Below the pieces are notes generated by a model. That model was not told where the DNA came from. It worked only from the letters and a program-made list of their open reading frames with translations, and searched no databases. Positions 3,508-51,544 of a stretch of DNA of 64,000 nucleotides are shown one piece after another. The stretch is from positions 1-64,000 of the forward strand of contig VGEP01000024.1 in the NCBI GenBank assembly GCA_016869215.1. The letters are read 5' to 3'. The translations under genes and the position numbers were made by a program. The stretch's first letter is position 1. Every line of letters starts with the position of its first letter. Origin of the DNA: Alphaproteobacteria bacterium. GTDB lineage: Bacteria > Pseudomonadota > Alphaproteobacteria > Rhizobiales > Xanthobacteraceae.

Positions 3508-4530
3508 ATGAGCGGCGAAGCGGCGCATTCGGGAATTTTTGGCGGATCGAGGCGAAGGTTCCTGTGCGCGCTGCCGGCGCTTCTTGCGGCTACGCTGTCG
3601 CCGCTCGGCGCCTCGGCGCAGGACAGCTATCCCTCGCGCCCCATCACGCTGATCGTACCCTATGCCGCGGGCGGCTCGATCGACCTGATCGCGCGTATTC
3701 TCGCCGAAGGGCTTGCGCCGCGCTTGAAGCAGACCGTGGTGGTCGAGAACAAGCCCGGCGGCAACGGCACCGTCGGCATCCGCGAGGTCGTGCGCGCGAG
3801 CCCCGACGGTTACGTGCTGCAGATGGGTGCGCTCGGCGCCAATGTCACGCCGGCCGCGGTGCAGGCCAACTATCCGTTCGACCCATTGCGCGACTATGTG
3901 CCGGTCTCGGTCGTCGCGGAGTGGTCGGCGGTGCTGACGATCAAGCGCGACCTGCCGCCCAACACGCTTTCGGAGTTCGTGGCCTACGCGCGGGCCCGGC
4001 CGAATGCGCTCAACTTCGGCACCACCGGCTTCGGCAGCTTCGCCCACCTCGTCAGCGAAGTGTTCATGCAGCGCACCGGCTTGCAGATGCAGCATGTTCA
4101 GTACAAGGGCGGCTCTCAGGCGACCACGGACCTGCTCGCCGGCACGATCGACGCCCACATGATGAGTTCGCCGGTGGCCGCCGGGCAGGCGGAGAATCCG
4201 CGCGTGAAGATGCTTGCGGTCGCAAGTCCGCGGCCGTTGCCGTCGCTGCCCAAGGTCCCGACCATGGCCGCGGCAGGCGTCGAGGGCGTCGACCAGACCT
4301 CGTGGCTTGCGTTGTTCGGCCCGGCAGGACTGCCCGATCGGGTGCGCGACCGCCTGGCCCAGGAAGCGGTCGCGGTGGCCCGGGATCCGGAATATCAGGC
4401 GAAGTTTCGCAAGACCGGCATGGAACCGGTCGGGCTCGATGCGGCCGCGACGGCACAGTTCTACCGCAAGGAAGTCGTACACTGGTTCGAACTCGTCCGC
4501 ACCCGCGGCCTGGCTCAGAAGCAAAATTGA
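3508..4530 (+). CDS. Bug/TctC-family periplasmic solute receptor (1 of 6)
   Basis: Extracytoplasmic solute receptor of the Bug family, 340 residues. A twin-arginine-like signal (SRRRFLCALPALL) leads to a cleavage region near ASAQD, then the family hallmark SYPSRPITLIVPYAAGGSID and the second signature ASPDGYVLQMG. Bug proteins usually bind carboxylates or aromatic acids in a two-lobed cleft and hand them to TctAB or signal their presence. It sits behind the glutathione transferase gene and ends 10 bases from a convergent small gene. The SRRRF sequence suggests Tat export, which is uncommon among the other Bug proteins in this window. Confidence 0.93.
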   Translation: MSGEAAHSGIFGGSRRRFLCALPALLAATLSPLGASAQDSYPSRPITLIVPYAAGGSIDLIARILAEGLAPRLKQTVVVENKPGGNGTVGIREVVRASPDGYVLQMGALGANVTPAAVQANYPFDPLRDYVPVSVVAEWSAVLTIKRDLPPNTLSEFVAYARARPNALNFGTTGFGSFAHLVSEVFMQRTGLQMQHVQYKGGSQATTDLLAGTIDAHMMSSPVAAGQAENPRVKMLAVASPRPLPSLPKVPTMAAAGVEGVDQTSWLALFGPAGLPDRVRDRLAQEAVAVARDPEYQAKFRKTGMEPVGLDAAATAQFYRKEVVHWFELVRTRGLAQKQN

Positions 4531-4540
4531 GGCGCAGCCG

Positions 4541-4795
4541 TTATCTTGCGGCGGCCACGCGCAGTTGCGGCTGCGGTTCGGCGTCGCCGGCCTTGAAGTC
4601 GGCGACGCGTGGCTCGCGCAGTTCGACCGGCGGCTGGTTGCGGCCGCCTCCGTCCGGTCCACGCAGCAGGCGCGCGTGCTCTTCGTAGTCACGCGCAATG
4701 GCTTCGAATTTTCGCGCGATGGCAGCCGACGTGCAAATGCGTGCAATGCGGCGGCAGCGCGCGGCCTGTTCCAACAGCGTCCGTTCGTCGGTCAT
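4541..4795 (-). CDS. Small conserved hypothetical protein
   Basis: An 84-residue protein with a helical, arginine-rich N-terminal half (LLEQAARCRRIARICTSA) and a proline-rich tail. Similar short proteins with an EQAARCRRLA-type helix are common in Bradyrhizobiaceae, but I do not know a function. The reading frame is preferred over the antisense shadows because the ATG at 4795 follows AGGGGG and the codon use is normal. It is convergent with the upstream Bug receptor gene, so its promoter should lie in the 270-base gap 4796-5064. Confidence 0.65.
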   Translation of the reverse strand: MTDERTLLEQAARCRRIARICTSAAIARKFEAIARDYEEHARLLRGPDGGGRNQPPVELREPRVADFKAGDAEPQPQLRVAAAR

Positions 4796-5064
4796 GAGGT
4801 CCCCCTTCTCGGCGAACGCATCTTGAACGAAAACGTTGCGCTGGCGCGGCGGCGGCGGATTAATGTGACGGGCGTATTTAACGGGCGGTTAGAGCGAACG
4901 AAGACTTACGGCACCGTTCGCGTAAGCCACTGAATTTTCAACGGCGGCGTCGAAGCGCGGCGTCGCAGATATCCCCGCAGTGCTGTGGACATCTCGCATT
5001 GGGGACGATCCGGGCGCTCGGACGCGCGCGGGAAAATACGCCGCTGACTTGGAGAATAGGTCCG

Positions 5065-46390: not shown

Positions 46391-47563
46391 TTACGCCTCC
46401 CCAATCTCCTTCAGAATCTCCGACGTGTGCTGGCCAAGCTTCGGCGCCGGATTGGCCGAGGCCATCGGCAGGCCGTCGATGACGATCGGCGTGCGAACGC
46501 CGGGGATCGTTCCGCCCTTGGCGTCCGCGCTCGGCAGGTCGAGCTTCATGCCGCGGTGCCTTACATGCGGGTCGTCGAACACCTGGTCGAGGTTGTTGAT
46601 CGGGCCCGCCGGCACGCCGACCTGCTCCAGCTCGTCGGCGAGATCCTGCATCTTGAACTTCAGCGTCAGCGCGGTGAGCTTACCGATCAGCTCGGCGCGG
46701 TTGGCGAGGCGCGACTTGTTGTCGATGTAGCTCGGGTGCTTGGCGAGCTCCGGCGCGCCGAGCACGCCGCAGAGCTTGGCATACTGGCTGTCGTTGCCGG
46801 TGGCGATGATGATGTAGCCGTCGGCGACCGGGAACACCTGATAGGGCACGATGTTCGGATGCGCGTTGCCGATCCGCCCCGGCACCTTCATCGACGCGAG
46901 ATAGTTCATGCCCTGGTTTGCGAGCAGGCCCACGGTGGTGTCGACCAATGCCGTATCGACGTAGCAGCCCTTGCCGGTGCGCTCGCGCTGCCGCAGCGCC
47001 GAGAGAATTCCGACCACCGAGTAGATGCCGGTGCAGAGGTCGGACACCGGCACGCCCGCGCGGGTCGGCTCGCCGTCCGCGGTGCCGGTGAGCGACATGA
47101 AGCCGCCCATGCCCTGCGCCATCAGGTCGTAGCCGGCGCGGGTGGAATAGGGGCCGTCCTGGCCGAAGCCCGTCACCGAGCAGTAGATCAGCCGCGGGCA
47201 CTCCGGCGCGAGCGACTTGTAGTCGAGTCCGAACTTGGCGAGGCCGCCGACCTTGAAGTTCTCGATCAGCACGTCCGATCGCGCCGCGAGCTTCTTGACG
47301 ATACGCTTGCCGTCCTCGCTCTCGAAGTCGCACTCGATCGAACGTTTGCCGCGGTTGGTCGAATGGAAATAGGCGGCGCCGATATGGCTGCCGTCCTTGC
47401 CCTCGATGAACGGCGGTCCCCAGGCGCGCGTGTCGTCGCCGGTCTTGGAGCGCTCGACCTTGATCACGTCGGCGCCGAGGTCGGCCAGAATCTGCCCGGC
47501 CCAGGGGCCAGCCAGAATTCGGGCTAATTCCAGCACCCGCAAACCGCTCAACGGACCCGCCAT
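46391..47563 (-). CDS. Class III CoA-transferase (CaiB/BaiF family), copy 2
   Basis: A 390-residue class III CoA-transferase, visibly a close relative of the one at 28740 (LSGLRVLELARILAGPWAGQ; RTGKGCYVDTALVDTTVG with the catalytic Asp). It has GGAG ahead of the ATG at 47563, and the upstream frame extension to 47644 is not needed. It is divergent from malonyl-CoA decarboxylase, which suggests that it might activate malonate or another dicarboxylate; that link is inference. It is convergent with the MetE-like gene (15-base gap). Confidence 0.92.
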   Translation of the reverse strand: MAGPLSGLRVLELARILAGPWAGQILADLGADVIKVERSKTGDDTRAWGPPFIEGKDGSHIGAAYFHSTNRGKRSIECDFESEDGKRIVKKLAARSDVLIENFKVGGLAKFGLDYKSLAPECPRLIYCSVTGFGQDGPYSTRAGYDLMAQGMGGFMSLTGTADGEPTRAGVPVSDLCTGIYSVVGILSALRQRERTGKGCYVDTALVDTTVGLLANQGMNYLASMKVPGRIGNAHPNIVPYQVFPVADGYIIIATGNDSQYAKLCGVLGAPELAKHPSYIDNKSRLANRAELIGKLTALTLKFKMQDLADELEQVGVPAGPINNLDQVFDDPHVRHRGMKLDLPSADAKGGTIPGVRTPIVIDGLPMASANPAPKLGQHTSEILKEIGEA

Positions 47564-47721
47564 GATGACTCCTTGGGCAGAGAATATTCCCGCAATTCCC
47601 AGGAACCAGTGGCGTGCTGCCGCTATTTTGTCCAGACCCGGCATGGCGCTTCATGCCGCGTCGTCAGGGCTTCACCTTTTCCGCTATGATCGCCATATCC
47701 GGGCTCGGGGATTCGGTACGT

Positions 47722-49089
47722 ATGAACACGTCCTTTTTCGGCGAGATGCTGAACAGCATTACCGAGCGCGGCCGGGCGCTGCTCGACCGAACGCGCGAAC
47801 GCCGCGGTGCGGCGTCGGCTGCTCGGTCGGAGAGCCTTGCCGAGCTGTGCGAGGAACTCCTGTCCGGCCGCGGCGAAGCGTCGGGCGTGGCCCTCGCAGG
47901 CGAAATCCTGGCCAAGTATTCCGAACTGACCACGGGACCGCGGATCGCGTTCTTCGAGGCGCTGGCGACCCGCTTCGGCCACGACCGCGACAAGCTCGAA
48001 GCGGCCATCGCCGCCTGGAAGGCTGAACCGTCGGACAAGACTGCGTCCGGTGTGCATCGCGCCGCCGAGCCGCGGCGTCAGGAACTGCTGCGCCGGCTCA
48101 ACCTCGCGCCCGGCGGCACCGCCTCGCTGGTGCGCATGCGCGAGCAGGTGCTCGATGCGCTCGACCGCCGCAAGGATCTTGCCGACCTGGACGCCGATTT
48201 CGTGCATCTATTCTCGTCCTGGTTCAACCGCGGCTTTCTGGTGCTGCGCAAGATCGACTGGGCGACGCCTGCGATGATCCTGGAGAAGATCATCCGCTAC
48301 GAGGCGGTGCACGAGATCGCGAGCTGGGAGGATCTGCGCGCGCGCATCGATCCGCCGGACCGGCGCTGCTACGCGTTCTTTCACCCGGCGCTGGTCGACG
48401 AACCGCTGATCTTCGTGGTGGTCGCGCTCACGCGCGGCATTCCCGACGCGGTGGCGCCTATTCTCTCGGTCGAGCGCGGGCCGATTCCGCCCGACACCGC
48501 CGATACGGCGGTATTCTATTCGATCTCCAATTGCCAGCGCGGGCTGAGCGGCGTTTCGTTCGGCAACTTCCTGATCAAGCAGGTGGTCGAGGAAATTTCC
48601 CGCGATATTCCGAAGCTGAAAACCTTCGTGACGTTGTCGCCGGCGCCGAACTTCGCCGCCTGGCTGGACCGCGAGCGCAAGAACGAAAATTCGGTCGCGA
48701 TCTCGCCGGAGGACCGCGCCCTGCTTTCCGGTCTCGACACACCGGGTTGGTGGACGGCGCCCGCGACCAGCGAGCCGCTGCGCGAGCCGATGATGCGCGC
48801 CGCGGCCTGGTATTACGTGCGTGCGCGCAATGCCCGCAACGCGCCGGCCGATTCGGTGGCGCGGTTCCATCTCGGCAACGGCGCACGGCTGGAGCGCATC
48901 GATTTCTTGGCCGACGTGACCGAGAAGGGCATCGCGCAGTCCCACGGGCTCATGGTGAACTACCTCTACGATCTCGAAGACATCGAGAAGAACCACGAGG
49001 CCTATGTCGAGGGCCGCGCGATTGTGGCCTCGAACGCCGTGCGCAAGCTGGTGCGCAAGGCATCGGTCGAGCTGGTGCCGGCGGGCTAG
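47722..49089 (+). CDS. Malonyl-CoA decarboxylase
   Basis: Converts malonyl-CoA to acetyl-CoA and CO2; 455 residues, the normal length. The N-terminal helical domain (LAELCEELLSGRGEASGVALAGEIL, FFEALATRFGHD) and the catalytic acetyltransferase-fold domain (FFHPALVDEPLIFVVVALTRGIP, SISNCQRGLSGVSFGNFLIKQV, and GNGARLERIDFLAD...KGIAQSHGLMVNYLYD with the catalytic His/Ser region) are complete. I chose ATG 47722 (MNTSFFGEML); the upstream extension in the track is low in coding character. It starts 159 bases from a divergent CoA-transferase and is followed by a RutE-like reductase. Confidence 0.93.
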   Translation: MNTSFFGEMLNSITERGRALLDRTRERRGAASAARSESLAELCEELLSGRGEASGVALAGEILAKYSELTTGPRIAFFEALATRFGHDRDKLEAAIAAWKAEPSDKTASGVHRAAEPRRQELLRRLNLAPGGTASLVRMREQVLDALDRRKDLADLDADFVHLFSSWFNRGFLVLRKIDWATPAMILEKIIRYEAVHEIASWEDLRARIDPPDRRCYAFFHPALVDEPLIFVVVALTRGIPDAVAPILSVERGPIPPDTADTAVFYSISNCQRGLSGVSFGNFLIKQVVEEISRDIPKLKTFVTLSPAPNFAAWLDRERKNENSVAISPEDRALLSGLDTPGWWTAPATSEPLREPMMRAAAWYYVRARNARNAPADSVARFHLGNGARLERIDFLADVTEKGIAQSHGLMVNYLYDLEDIEKNHEAYVEGRAIVASNAVRKLVRKASVELVPAG

Positions 49090-49182
49090 CCGTCCCACTT
49101 TGGTCTTTTCACAAGCCTTTCCCGGCTTCATGCTGAGAAGCCCGCCGCAGCAGCGTCGGGCCTTTCGATAGGACTGTCTGCG

Positions 49183-49788
49183 ATGAACGAAGCCGCCGTC
49201 AAACCGCGCCTGTCCGACGCCCAGCTCGACCTGCTGTTCCGCAAGGCGCGGAGCTTCATGGATTTCACGCCGCAGCCGGTGACCGACGGCGAACTGCGCG
49301 CGCTTTACGACCTCGCCAAATGGGGTCCGACCACCGCGAACTGCCAGCCGCAGCGCATCGTGTTTGTGCGCAGCGAGGAGGCCAAAGCGCGGCTCGCACC
49401 GGCGCTGTCGTCGCAGAACAAGAAGAAGGTTGCGGGCGCGCCGGTGACCGCGATCCTCGCCTACGACATGCGCTTCTTCGAGCATCTGCCGCGGCTGTTC
49501 CACAATCCGAACGCCCGCTCCTGGTACGAAACCACGCCGGAAGCGATCCGCACCACGGCCTTGCGAAATGCCTCGCTGCAAGGAGCCTATTTCATCCTGG
49601 CCGCGCGTGCGGTCGGCCTCGACTGCGGGCCGATGTCGGGCTTCAAGAACGACGCGGTCGATGCCGAGTTTTTCCCGGACGGCCGGTTTAAGTCGAACTT
49701 CCTGTGCTGCCTCGGACACGGCGATCCGGCGACGCTGCCGCCGCTGGACTACCGGTTTGCGTTCGACGAAGCGTGCCAGGTCTTGTGA
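49183..49788 (+). CDS. Nitroreductase-family protein, RutE/malonic semialdehyde reductase-like
   Basis: A 201-residue FMN-dependent reductase of the RutE branch. Signs are LFRKARSFMDFTPQPVTD, the KWGPTTANCQPQRIVFV flavin-binding stretch, NASLQGAYFILAARAVGLDCGPMSGF, and the short C-terminus. RutE reduces malonic semialdehyde to 3-hydroxypropionate in pyrimidine breakdown; no other rut gene is here, but the malonyl-CoA decarboxylase next door shares C3-dicarboxylate chemistry. Start ATG with AGGA upstream; 93 bases after the decarboxylase, possibly the same transcript. Confidence 0.88.
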   Translation: MNEAAVKPRLSDAQLDLLFRKARSFMDFTPQPVTDGELRALYDLAKWGPTTANCQPQRIVFVRSEEAKARLAPALSSQNKKKVAGAPVTAILAYDMRFFEHLPRLFHNPNARSWYETTPEAIRTTALRNASLQGAYFILAARAVGLDCGPMSGFKNDAVDAEFFPDGRFKSNFLCCLGHGDPATLPPLDYRFAFDEACQVL

Positions 49789-49887
49789 TGGGCCGGTGGG
49801 CAGCGGGAAACCGGCGATGGCGGAGGGCTTCCGGCCGGCGCTATAATGTCCGCGACGGGCGGCGACGCCATTCCGAATGAGGCCGAT

Positions 49888-50916
49888 ATGCGCAGTGCGC
49901 GCCGCTCGGGTGCCGGGATCGTTTTGTTGCTGAGATTGAGAACTCTCGCAGCCGCGACGCTGATGCTCGCCGCCGCCATTCCTTCCGCGCGTGCCCAGAG
50001 CTTTACCATCGACGATCTCGTCGGCGCGGTGGTCCGGATCAAGACCTTCATCAACCCCGACGGCCGCTCGGTGCAGAACCTCGGCCGCGAGCGCCAGGGC
50101 TCGGGCATCGTGATCGACGAAAACGGCCTGGTGCTGACCATCGGCTACCTGATGCTGGAGGCGCACGCCGCCGAACTGGTCACCGGCACGGGCCGCACGG
50201 TGCCGGCGAATGTCGTCGGCTACGACCACGACACCGGCTTCGGGCTGCTGCGCGCCATCGAGCCGTTGAAGATCAAGCCGCTCGCTTTCGGCAAGGCCGA
50301 CACGCTCAAGCTCGACGATCCGGCGCTGGTGGTGTCGTTCGGCGGCGCCGGCATGATGCTGCCGGTGCATGTCGCGAGCCGCCGCACCTTCACGGGAAGC
50401 TGGGAGTATCTGATCGAAAGCGCGATCTACACCATGCCGCCGCACCCGCAGTGGAGCGGGGCCGCGCTCGTCAGCCGCGAGGGCAAGCTGGTCGGCGTGG
50501 GTTCGCTGATCGTCGGCAACGCCAAGGACGACACGACCGTGTCGCCCGGCAACATGTTCGTGCCGATCGACGGGCTGTTTCCGATCATGGGCGACCTCTT
50601 GCATTCCGGCCGCGTCGCCGGGCCGGGCAAGCCGTGGCTCGGCGTCAACACCCAGGAACTGGGCGGCAAGCTGTTCGTCGCGCGCGTCACGCCGGGGAGT
50701 CCTGCGGAGAAGGCGGGCCTGAAGCGCGGCGATCAGATTTCGGGCGTCAAGGGCGAGCCGGTGAACACCATGGCCGACTTCTACCGCAAGCTCTGGGCGC
50801 TCGGTGCCGCCGGCATCAGCGTCCCGCTCGACGTGCGCCGCAACGGCGAGACGCAGCGGATGGAGATTCCGTCGGCCAACCGGATGGATCATCTGAAGCT
50901 GAAGTCGACGTTCTGA
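49888..50916 (+). CDS. DegP/HtrA-like PDZ protein with lost catalytic His and Asp (pseudoprotease)
   Basis: A 342-residue exported protein with a trypsin-like domain and one PDZ domain. Aligned by eye with DegS, the region of T-N-x-H-V reads L-T-I-G-Y-L (His to Tyr), the T-D-L-A-V-L-K region reads T-G-F-G-L-L-R (Asp to Gly), while the Ser region PQWSGAALVSREGKLVG keeps the Ser but not G-N-S-G-G. It should therefore not be an active protease. The signal peptide ends near PSARAQS, and the PDZ (GKPWLGVNTQEL ... VTPGSPAEKAGLKRGDQI) is normal, so binding is likely its role. I chose ATG 49888 behind GAGG; ATG 49846 is an alternative. Confidence 0.85.
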   Translation: MRSARRSGAGIVLLLRLRTLAAATLMLAAAIPSARAQSFTIDDLVGAVVRIKTFINPDGRSVQNLGRERQGSGIVIDENGLVLTIGYLMLEAHAAELVTGTGRTVPANVVGYDHDTGFGLLRAIEPLKIKPLAFGKADTLKLDDPALVVSFGGAGMMLPVHVASRRTFTGSWEYLIESAIYTMPPHPQWSGAALVSREGKLVGVGSLIVGNAKDDTTVSPGNMFVPIDGLFPIMGDLLHSGRVAGPGKPWLGVNTQELGGKLFVARVTPGSPAEKAGLKRGDQISGVKGEPVNTMADFYRKLWALGAAGISVPLDVRRNGETQRMEIPSANRMDHLKLKSTF

Positions 50917-51544
50917 GCGCGCGCGGGCCATTGCTTTCTCGCCATCCAGTCCTCTTCGATTGTCAAACAGCCAAACGGGATCGTCCGCGGACTTTGAGGG
51001 CACCGCGGAGCCCTGCTCCTTTTTCCGTCCCCTGGACAAAGCCCGAGGGGATGGAGCGCCGAGCGGCGCCCTTTCTTAAGTTCCCCGCTTCGGCCTTCCG
51101 GCTTCGGCGAGGGCGCCCAGGAACGCCCGGACGCGCGCCTCTCGGCGCTCCATCGCGGCGATTTTGGGCCTTGGGACCGTAGCTTCCGGGGCGCGGACGG
51201 AAGACTCTTCGCCTTCCTTATCCAGCGGCTTTCGCCGCCTTCGTCCGGCCCCGTCCAGCCCACCGAAGGGCGGCTCCCCGTAGTGGGAACGGACGGTGAC
51301 CCGAGGCCTCCCGGGTGCCGGTTTGCGAAACCGATCCGCGGGCGCCGCATCCCGCTCCGTCAAAAAGACGCCTCTAGATGACGCCCTCGGATGAGCGGGA
51401 CACGACAAAGATAAGCCCGGTTTGGAGCGCGGGGATAAGTTTTTTATCCGGCTGAGACTGCAAGAGAATCCCGTGCACGTAACGGTGCTGGTCAAAATCG
51501 TTGCGGGGCCGCACAGTCACCGCGCGAACCGAGGAACCCACGCC
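50917..51544. other. Gene-free 0.63 kb region
   Basis: No gene is supported. Several overlapping frames are open (51076..51495 minus, 50889..51350 minus, 50451..51182 plus) but they are rich in R, P, G and S, overlap each other and lack ribosome sites. The stretch contains GC-rich inverted segments and, at 51433-51449, a small hairpin (GGATAA GTTTT TTATCC). Its texture resembles dispersed, non-coding repeats seen between Bradyrhizobiaceae genes; homology is not testable here. Confidence 0.45.

Follow-up and report, generated by a model that had tools for sequence, protein, structure and literature searches.

An exported HtrA-type protein with a degenerate active site belongs to a large family of probable pseudoproteases

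The HtrA proteins DegP, DegQ and DegS (MEROPS S1C) are exported and carry a trypsin-like domain followed by a PDZ domain. A Gly at position 193 is needed for the oxyanion hole, and HtrA scaffolds use the PDZ domain and the cleft to bind unfolded segments and C-termini; DegP with a mutated Ser keeps its chaperone activity. Inactive trypsin-like homologues are already known as a kind, because a 2008 survey of 91 prokaryotic genomes listed 42 serine-protease homologues that are inactive, of which two are trypsin-like (PMC2605481). The nearest studied analogue of the family described here is MamO of magnetotactic Alphaproteobacteria, an HtrA-type pseudoprotease that activates an active HtrA, binds metal via H148 and H263, and has a bulky aromatic in loop L1 and a non-Gly residue at position 193 that was argued structurally to block its oxyanion hole (PMC4794232). 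MamE-type pseudoprotease duplicates of delta- and gammaproteobacterial magnetotactic bacteria are likewise inactive HtrA paralogues beside active ones (PMC4794232). CspC of Clostridioides difficile is also a serine pseudoprotease regulating a process (PMC6636752), but its subtilisin-like fold is unrelated.

In this study, we have explored a gene in a window of 64,000 nucleotides (the whole stretch of DNA analysed, from a Xanthobacteraceae genome) whose product, here called pseudo-HtrA, shares the architecture of DegP, DegQ and DegS and has its best PDB matches among them, by sequence and by fold. Unlike them, it is without the catalytic His, the catalytic Asp and the oxyanion Gly, and it matches the NCBIfam HtrA models far under their curated cut-offs (82.8 vs 416 bits for the Do family); unlike DegP and DegQ, it has one PDZ domain rather than two. 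Its features are collected in Table 1. From the ATG at 49888, the DNA reads as 342 codons with no internal stop, and the frame and ribosome-binding site are intact, as the initial annotation had stated. A second in-frame ATG at 49846 would allow a longer start of the same open reading frame; the start at 49888 is preferred because relatives begin like MRSARR. On the minus strand, a 943-aa open frame (48208-51039) spans the whole gene and its neighbours; we took it as a GC-rich shadow of the plus-strand genes and not as a real gene. The terminator-like hairpins are a weak signal (4 sites vs 1.5 expected in shuffles).

Table 1. Positions of the pseudo-HtrA gene and its features in the window
Feature	Coordinates	Strand	Basis or remark
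Ribosome-binding site GAGG	49879..49882	+	5 nt ahead of ATG 49888, read directly
Pseudo-HtrA gene	49888..50916	+	342 aa plus stop; orthologues found
Putative signal peptide, residues 1-36 (MRSARR...ARA/QS)	49888..49995	+	by eye from n/h/c regions
Trypsin-like (HtrA) fold domain, about residues 47-242, catalytically degenerate	50026..50613	+	Pfam, AlphaFold, Foldseek
Tyr87 (TAC) at catalytic His57 position	50146..50148	+	gapless alignment
Glu91, family-invariant, absent from HtrAs	50158..50160	+	family alignment
Gly117 (GGC) at catalytic Asp102 position	50236..50238	+	gapless alignment
Trp172-Glu173-Tyr174 signature, directly before nucleophile-loop strand	50401..50409	+	177/177 rows
Altered nucleophile/oxyanion loop P-Q-W-S-G-A	50446..50463	+	Gln188 at Gly193, Ser190 at Ser195
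PDZ domain, residues 250-327, PWLG binding-loop start invariant	50635..50868	+	Pfam and family alignment
Terminator-like hairpins with T run	50997..51024	+	3' of pseudo-HtrA gene; weak

Features of the HtrA structural superfamily that the protein shares are a signal-like N-terminus judged by eye, and a trypsin-like fold and C-terminal PDZ domain found with Pfam, AlphaFold and Foldseek. The N-terminus, which forms a hydrophobic helix at residues 11-30 in the predicted model, appears by eye to be a Sec signal peptide ending ARA/QS, in line with the export proposed initially. Pfam places Trypsin_2 at residues 71-204 (5e-17) and PDZ_2 at residues 250-327 (1e-12), so the PDZ domain is retained as first described. 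The protease domain is modelled with a mean pLDDT of 90.5 and, used alone in Foldseek, gives TM 0.76-0.78 to DegP and DegQ; therefore, the fold is predicted to be kept although the chemistry is lost. The whole chain gives TM of only about 0.5 because of PDZ placement.

To describe the active site, we used the chymotrypsin numbering of canonical HtrAs (His57, Asp102, Gly193, Ser195) and reference alignments to PDB DegQ and to five intact HtrAs out of related genomes. HtrA/S1C enzymes require the catalytic His57, the catalytic Asp102 and a GNSGG loop with Gly193. Residues 84-121 of the window protein align without gap to DegQ and to the five HtrAs, and within them LTNNHV of HtrAs becomes LTIGYL, with Tyr87 at the His position, and DPRTDLAVL becomes YDHDTGFGLL, with Gly117 at the Asp position. 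Both replacements, first read by eye, are borne out by this alignment. In the nucleophile loop, PGNSGG of HtrAs becomes PQWSGA (GNSGG to QWSGA), in which Gln188 replaces the oxyanion Gly193 and Ser190 (AGC, 50455-50457) occupies the Ser195 position. The initial annotation had also stressed that the Ser is kept. The residue is indeed there, but the statement misleads, as the loop is altered and only 43/177 family rows have Ser; its retention carries no catalytic meaning because 112/177 rows have Gly at that site. Judged from its sequence, the loop around Ser190 is not a working nucleophile loop.

By search scores and shared motifs, the window protein is a member of a distinct bacterial family that is large and old and has no name. 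Its signature comprises LTIGY, YDxxTGFGL, WEY, an [aromatic][SGQAN]GA loop and PWLG, all of which the window protein carries. When 61 genomes from the same group and its neighbours were searched at the protein level, each gave a match, but the scores formed two separate sets (family members 215-752 bits, ordinary HtrAs <=81 bits), and orthologues across the family are 54-72% identical to the window protein. In profile searches covering 240 genomes from the class and 299 from the phylum, complete members scored at least 319 bits and HtrAs at most 127; many genomes with HtrAs had no family member. Intermediate scores came from three places only, one member reported as two fragments and two truncated at contig ends, and these have Gly at the Asp site in all cases and Tyr at the His site in two, the third (the truncated L210) having Phe (TIGFL) where Tyr is otherwise invariant. 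The scores show no bridge between the family and active HtrAs. A scan of 84,980 named genomes, baited with TIGY and WEY and hence not independent for the Tyr, as the other searches are, found at least 595 relatives, of which the best 80 come from alpha-, beta-, gamma- and deltaproteobacterial and Binatia records, including the Desulfobacterales chromosome CP070694.1. The family occurs in many Alpha- and Betaproteobacteria, and in Gammaproteobacteria, Deltaproteobacteria and Binatia as MAG labels; viral relatives were looked for and none was found. The genome of the window encodes intact His/Asp/Ser HtrAs (G000:C18 and C23) and a second family member (G000:C9:70929-71861; locus L031, 6930-7862) with Tyr, Gly and Gly at the three sites. 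This second copy has lost all three triad residues, as has most of the family.

The literature searched (subscription papers and MEROPS lying outside that scope) contained no account of this family, and no dedicated Pfam or NCBIfam model was found. Public records label its members "S1C family serine protease" or "signal protein PDZ". Protease counts, and the inferences on periplasmic proteolysis drawn for rhizobia, Azospirillum and others, would consequently include proteins predicted to be unable to cut.

In the family alignment of 177 rows, in which the query stands twice, every row has Tyr at the His site and Gly at the Asp site, and this includes all 100 rows obtained by unbaited searches. 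The Ser site is variable (Gly 112, Ser 43, Gln 11, Ala 5, Asn 5, Thr 1), position 193 is non-Gly in 174 rows and Gly in 3, and position 194 is W, F or Y in 176. None of the aligned members, nor the truncated L210, has the full triad. A triad rebuilt from other residues was ruled out, as no His or Cys able to serve in it is conserved anywhere in the alignment. Both findings uphold the initial reading of a pseudoprotease: neither a conserved His or Cys to restore a triad nor an orthologue with His/Asp was found. Inactivity by the classical mechanism is almost certain, as firm a reading as sequence allows. After rows more than 80% identical were dropped, the remaining 129 fell on one side of a branch separating them from the five HtrAs (support 100), which supports, without proving, a single origin of the Tyr/Gly state, the tree being quick and its outgroup small. 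When all states are counted, the same tree implies a minimum of 15 changes at the Ser site. Judged by these columns and this tree, the Tyr/Gly loss is the trait of an ancient family, beyond the window gene alone.

The gene does not look like one in decay, as had been noted from its intact frame: it is free of stops, it has orthologues and many invariant residues, and dN was below dS in each pair tested (0.06 vs 0.30 for L002 and L003, the closest pair; 0.25 vs 0.51 for the window gene and L002). A recent pseudogene or a sequencing error was ruled out because orthologues carry the same change. Nine residues (R69, G86, Y87, E91, G117, W172, E173, Y174 and N222) do not vary in 177/177 rows and set the family apart from the five HtrAs; further invariant positions, most of which HtrAs share, are T84, D113, G191, P226, G241 and G252, and P249, W250 and G252 at the PDZ start are invariant or nearly so. 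The family-specific residues indicate, as far as conservation can, selection for another job. Uniform loss across the family, combined with new invariant residues, offers a clean system for studying what the HtrA scaffold does without catalysis.

Based on these results, we consider it probable that pseudo-HtrA is an exported, catalytically dead HtrA-type protein of a single-origin pseudoprotease family, and that it works as a periplasmic peptide binder that holds and sorts envelope proteins or tunes HtrA. In such a model, the protein would pass by Sec export into the periplasm and probably assemble as an HtrA-like trimer, and its PDZ domain and non-cleaving cleft would capture unfolded or C-terminal peptides. 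This binding would be used to hold and sort envelope proteins, or it would tune a genuine HtrA present in that cell, for example through mixed assembly or competition for the same activating peptides; the intact HtrAs of the window's genome are possible partners. We favour a non-cutting peptide-binding protein, chaperone or HtrA regulator, with no choice among these: a regulator is not preferred to a chaperone because HtrAs can act as chaperones without the triad. A binding or regulatory role in the envelope, as suggested initially, is plausible. Against this explanation, no conserved neighbour or operon ties pseudo-HtrA to any process.

A less likely possibility, which still deserves attention, is that the protein serves chiefly to form an assembly with one specific HtrA protease or to activate it, as MamO does for MamE, and binds no clients itself. 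MamE-dependent proteolysis needs MamO but not the triad of MamO, and within magnetosome gene clusters inactive partners emerged on three occasions (PMC4794232). The window's genome has intact HtrAs that could be partnered, and one deltaproteobacterial contig (L135) carries both a family member and, about 5 kb away, an HtrA that is intact. However, this is the only such pairing seen, and active HtrAs are not generally found in the gene neighbourhood of the family; several HtrAs occur in nearly every genome searched, which makes co-occurrence uninformative, and many HtrA-bearing genomes are without a family member. Unlike the MamE-type duplicates, which are recent and confined to magnetosome islands, the present family has a wide distribution, and the loci examined showed no recognisable magnetosome island. 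It also lets one ask whether dead HtrAs regulate live ones outside magnetosomes.

Compared with the peptide binder that we prefer, a further reading of the cleft is more speculative. The W-E-Y set with R69, E91 and N222 might instead form a site for a non-peptide ligand. That the cleft, through R69, Y87, E91, W172-E173-Y174 and N222, was turned into a new conserved ligand-binding or sensory site, in an ancient family widespread in Pseudomonadota, is a tentative idea to which we give a minority chance; if true, a whole layer of envelope regulation would be mislabelled as proteolysis.

Metal binding in the manner of MamO is improbable. The change is of the same type, with a dead triad, a non-Gly193 and a bulky aromatic in the L1 loop, but MamO keeps His and Asp and has its nucleophile changed to Thr, its Trp is at position 192 and not 194 (PMC4794232), and it carries a C-terminal TauE-like membrane (transporter) domain where pseudo-HtrA ends after the PDZ domain at residue 342. 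The residue before the Asp site, H148 in MamO, is Thr116 here (Thr in 126/177 rows). No counterpart of the di-His site H148/H263 is at hand in a family with no conserved His or Cys, the best being H186 (124/177 rows). The metal role of MamO does not carry over because these histidines are missing.

Even less credible is a new enzyme in which R69, Y87, E91, W172-E173-Y174 and N222 make a different active site in the old cleft. Their conservation in all rows, and their absence from HtrAs, goes beyond simple loss of function, but L210 has Phe for Tyr87, so the hydroxyl is not essential everywhere, and structural reasons would equally explain the conserved aromatics and Gly. A protease still active by a non-classical mechanism, with Ser190 and another base, can be practically discounted: Ser190 is present throughout the query's own clade (the 21-row and 24-row starred sets are all Ser), but the Ser is missing in most of the family, no His is conserved and the oxyanion Gly is lost.

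Across the family loci examined, no partner gene recurs. Beside pseudo-HtrA lie genes named by eye as malonyl-CoA decarboxylase-like, nitroreductase-like and GST-like. An operon partner is not claimed, since conservation of these neighbours does not reach beyond the genus or its near relatives, and the nitroreductase-like gene is often separated from the pseudo-HtrA gene by a divergent gene. At 46391-49089, a CoA-transferase-like gene (-) and the malonyl-CoA decarboxylase-like gene (+), also named by eye, face away from each other; this pair is conserved with pseudo-HtrA in the same genus. In other clades, uvrD/prmA-like genes adjoin the member on the opposite strand (about 15-17 loci), the uvrD-like adjacency being seen in several rhodospirillalean-type MAGs, and on Rhizobiaceae plasmids a gene for a small exported DUF992 protein precedes it. 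We judged both arrangements to be chance or lineage synteny and not a functional link; a DUF992 protein is a possible partner in Rhizobiaceae only. A DUF992-type gene lies just upstream of the member in L208 and L209 (about 4200-4860), and one is also near a member in L199. At another locus (L139), two family members stand in tandem with a uvrD-like gene between them.
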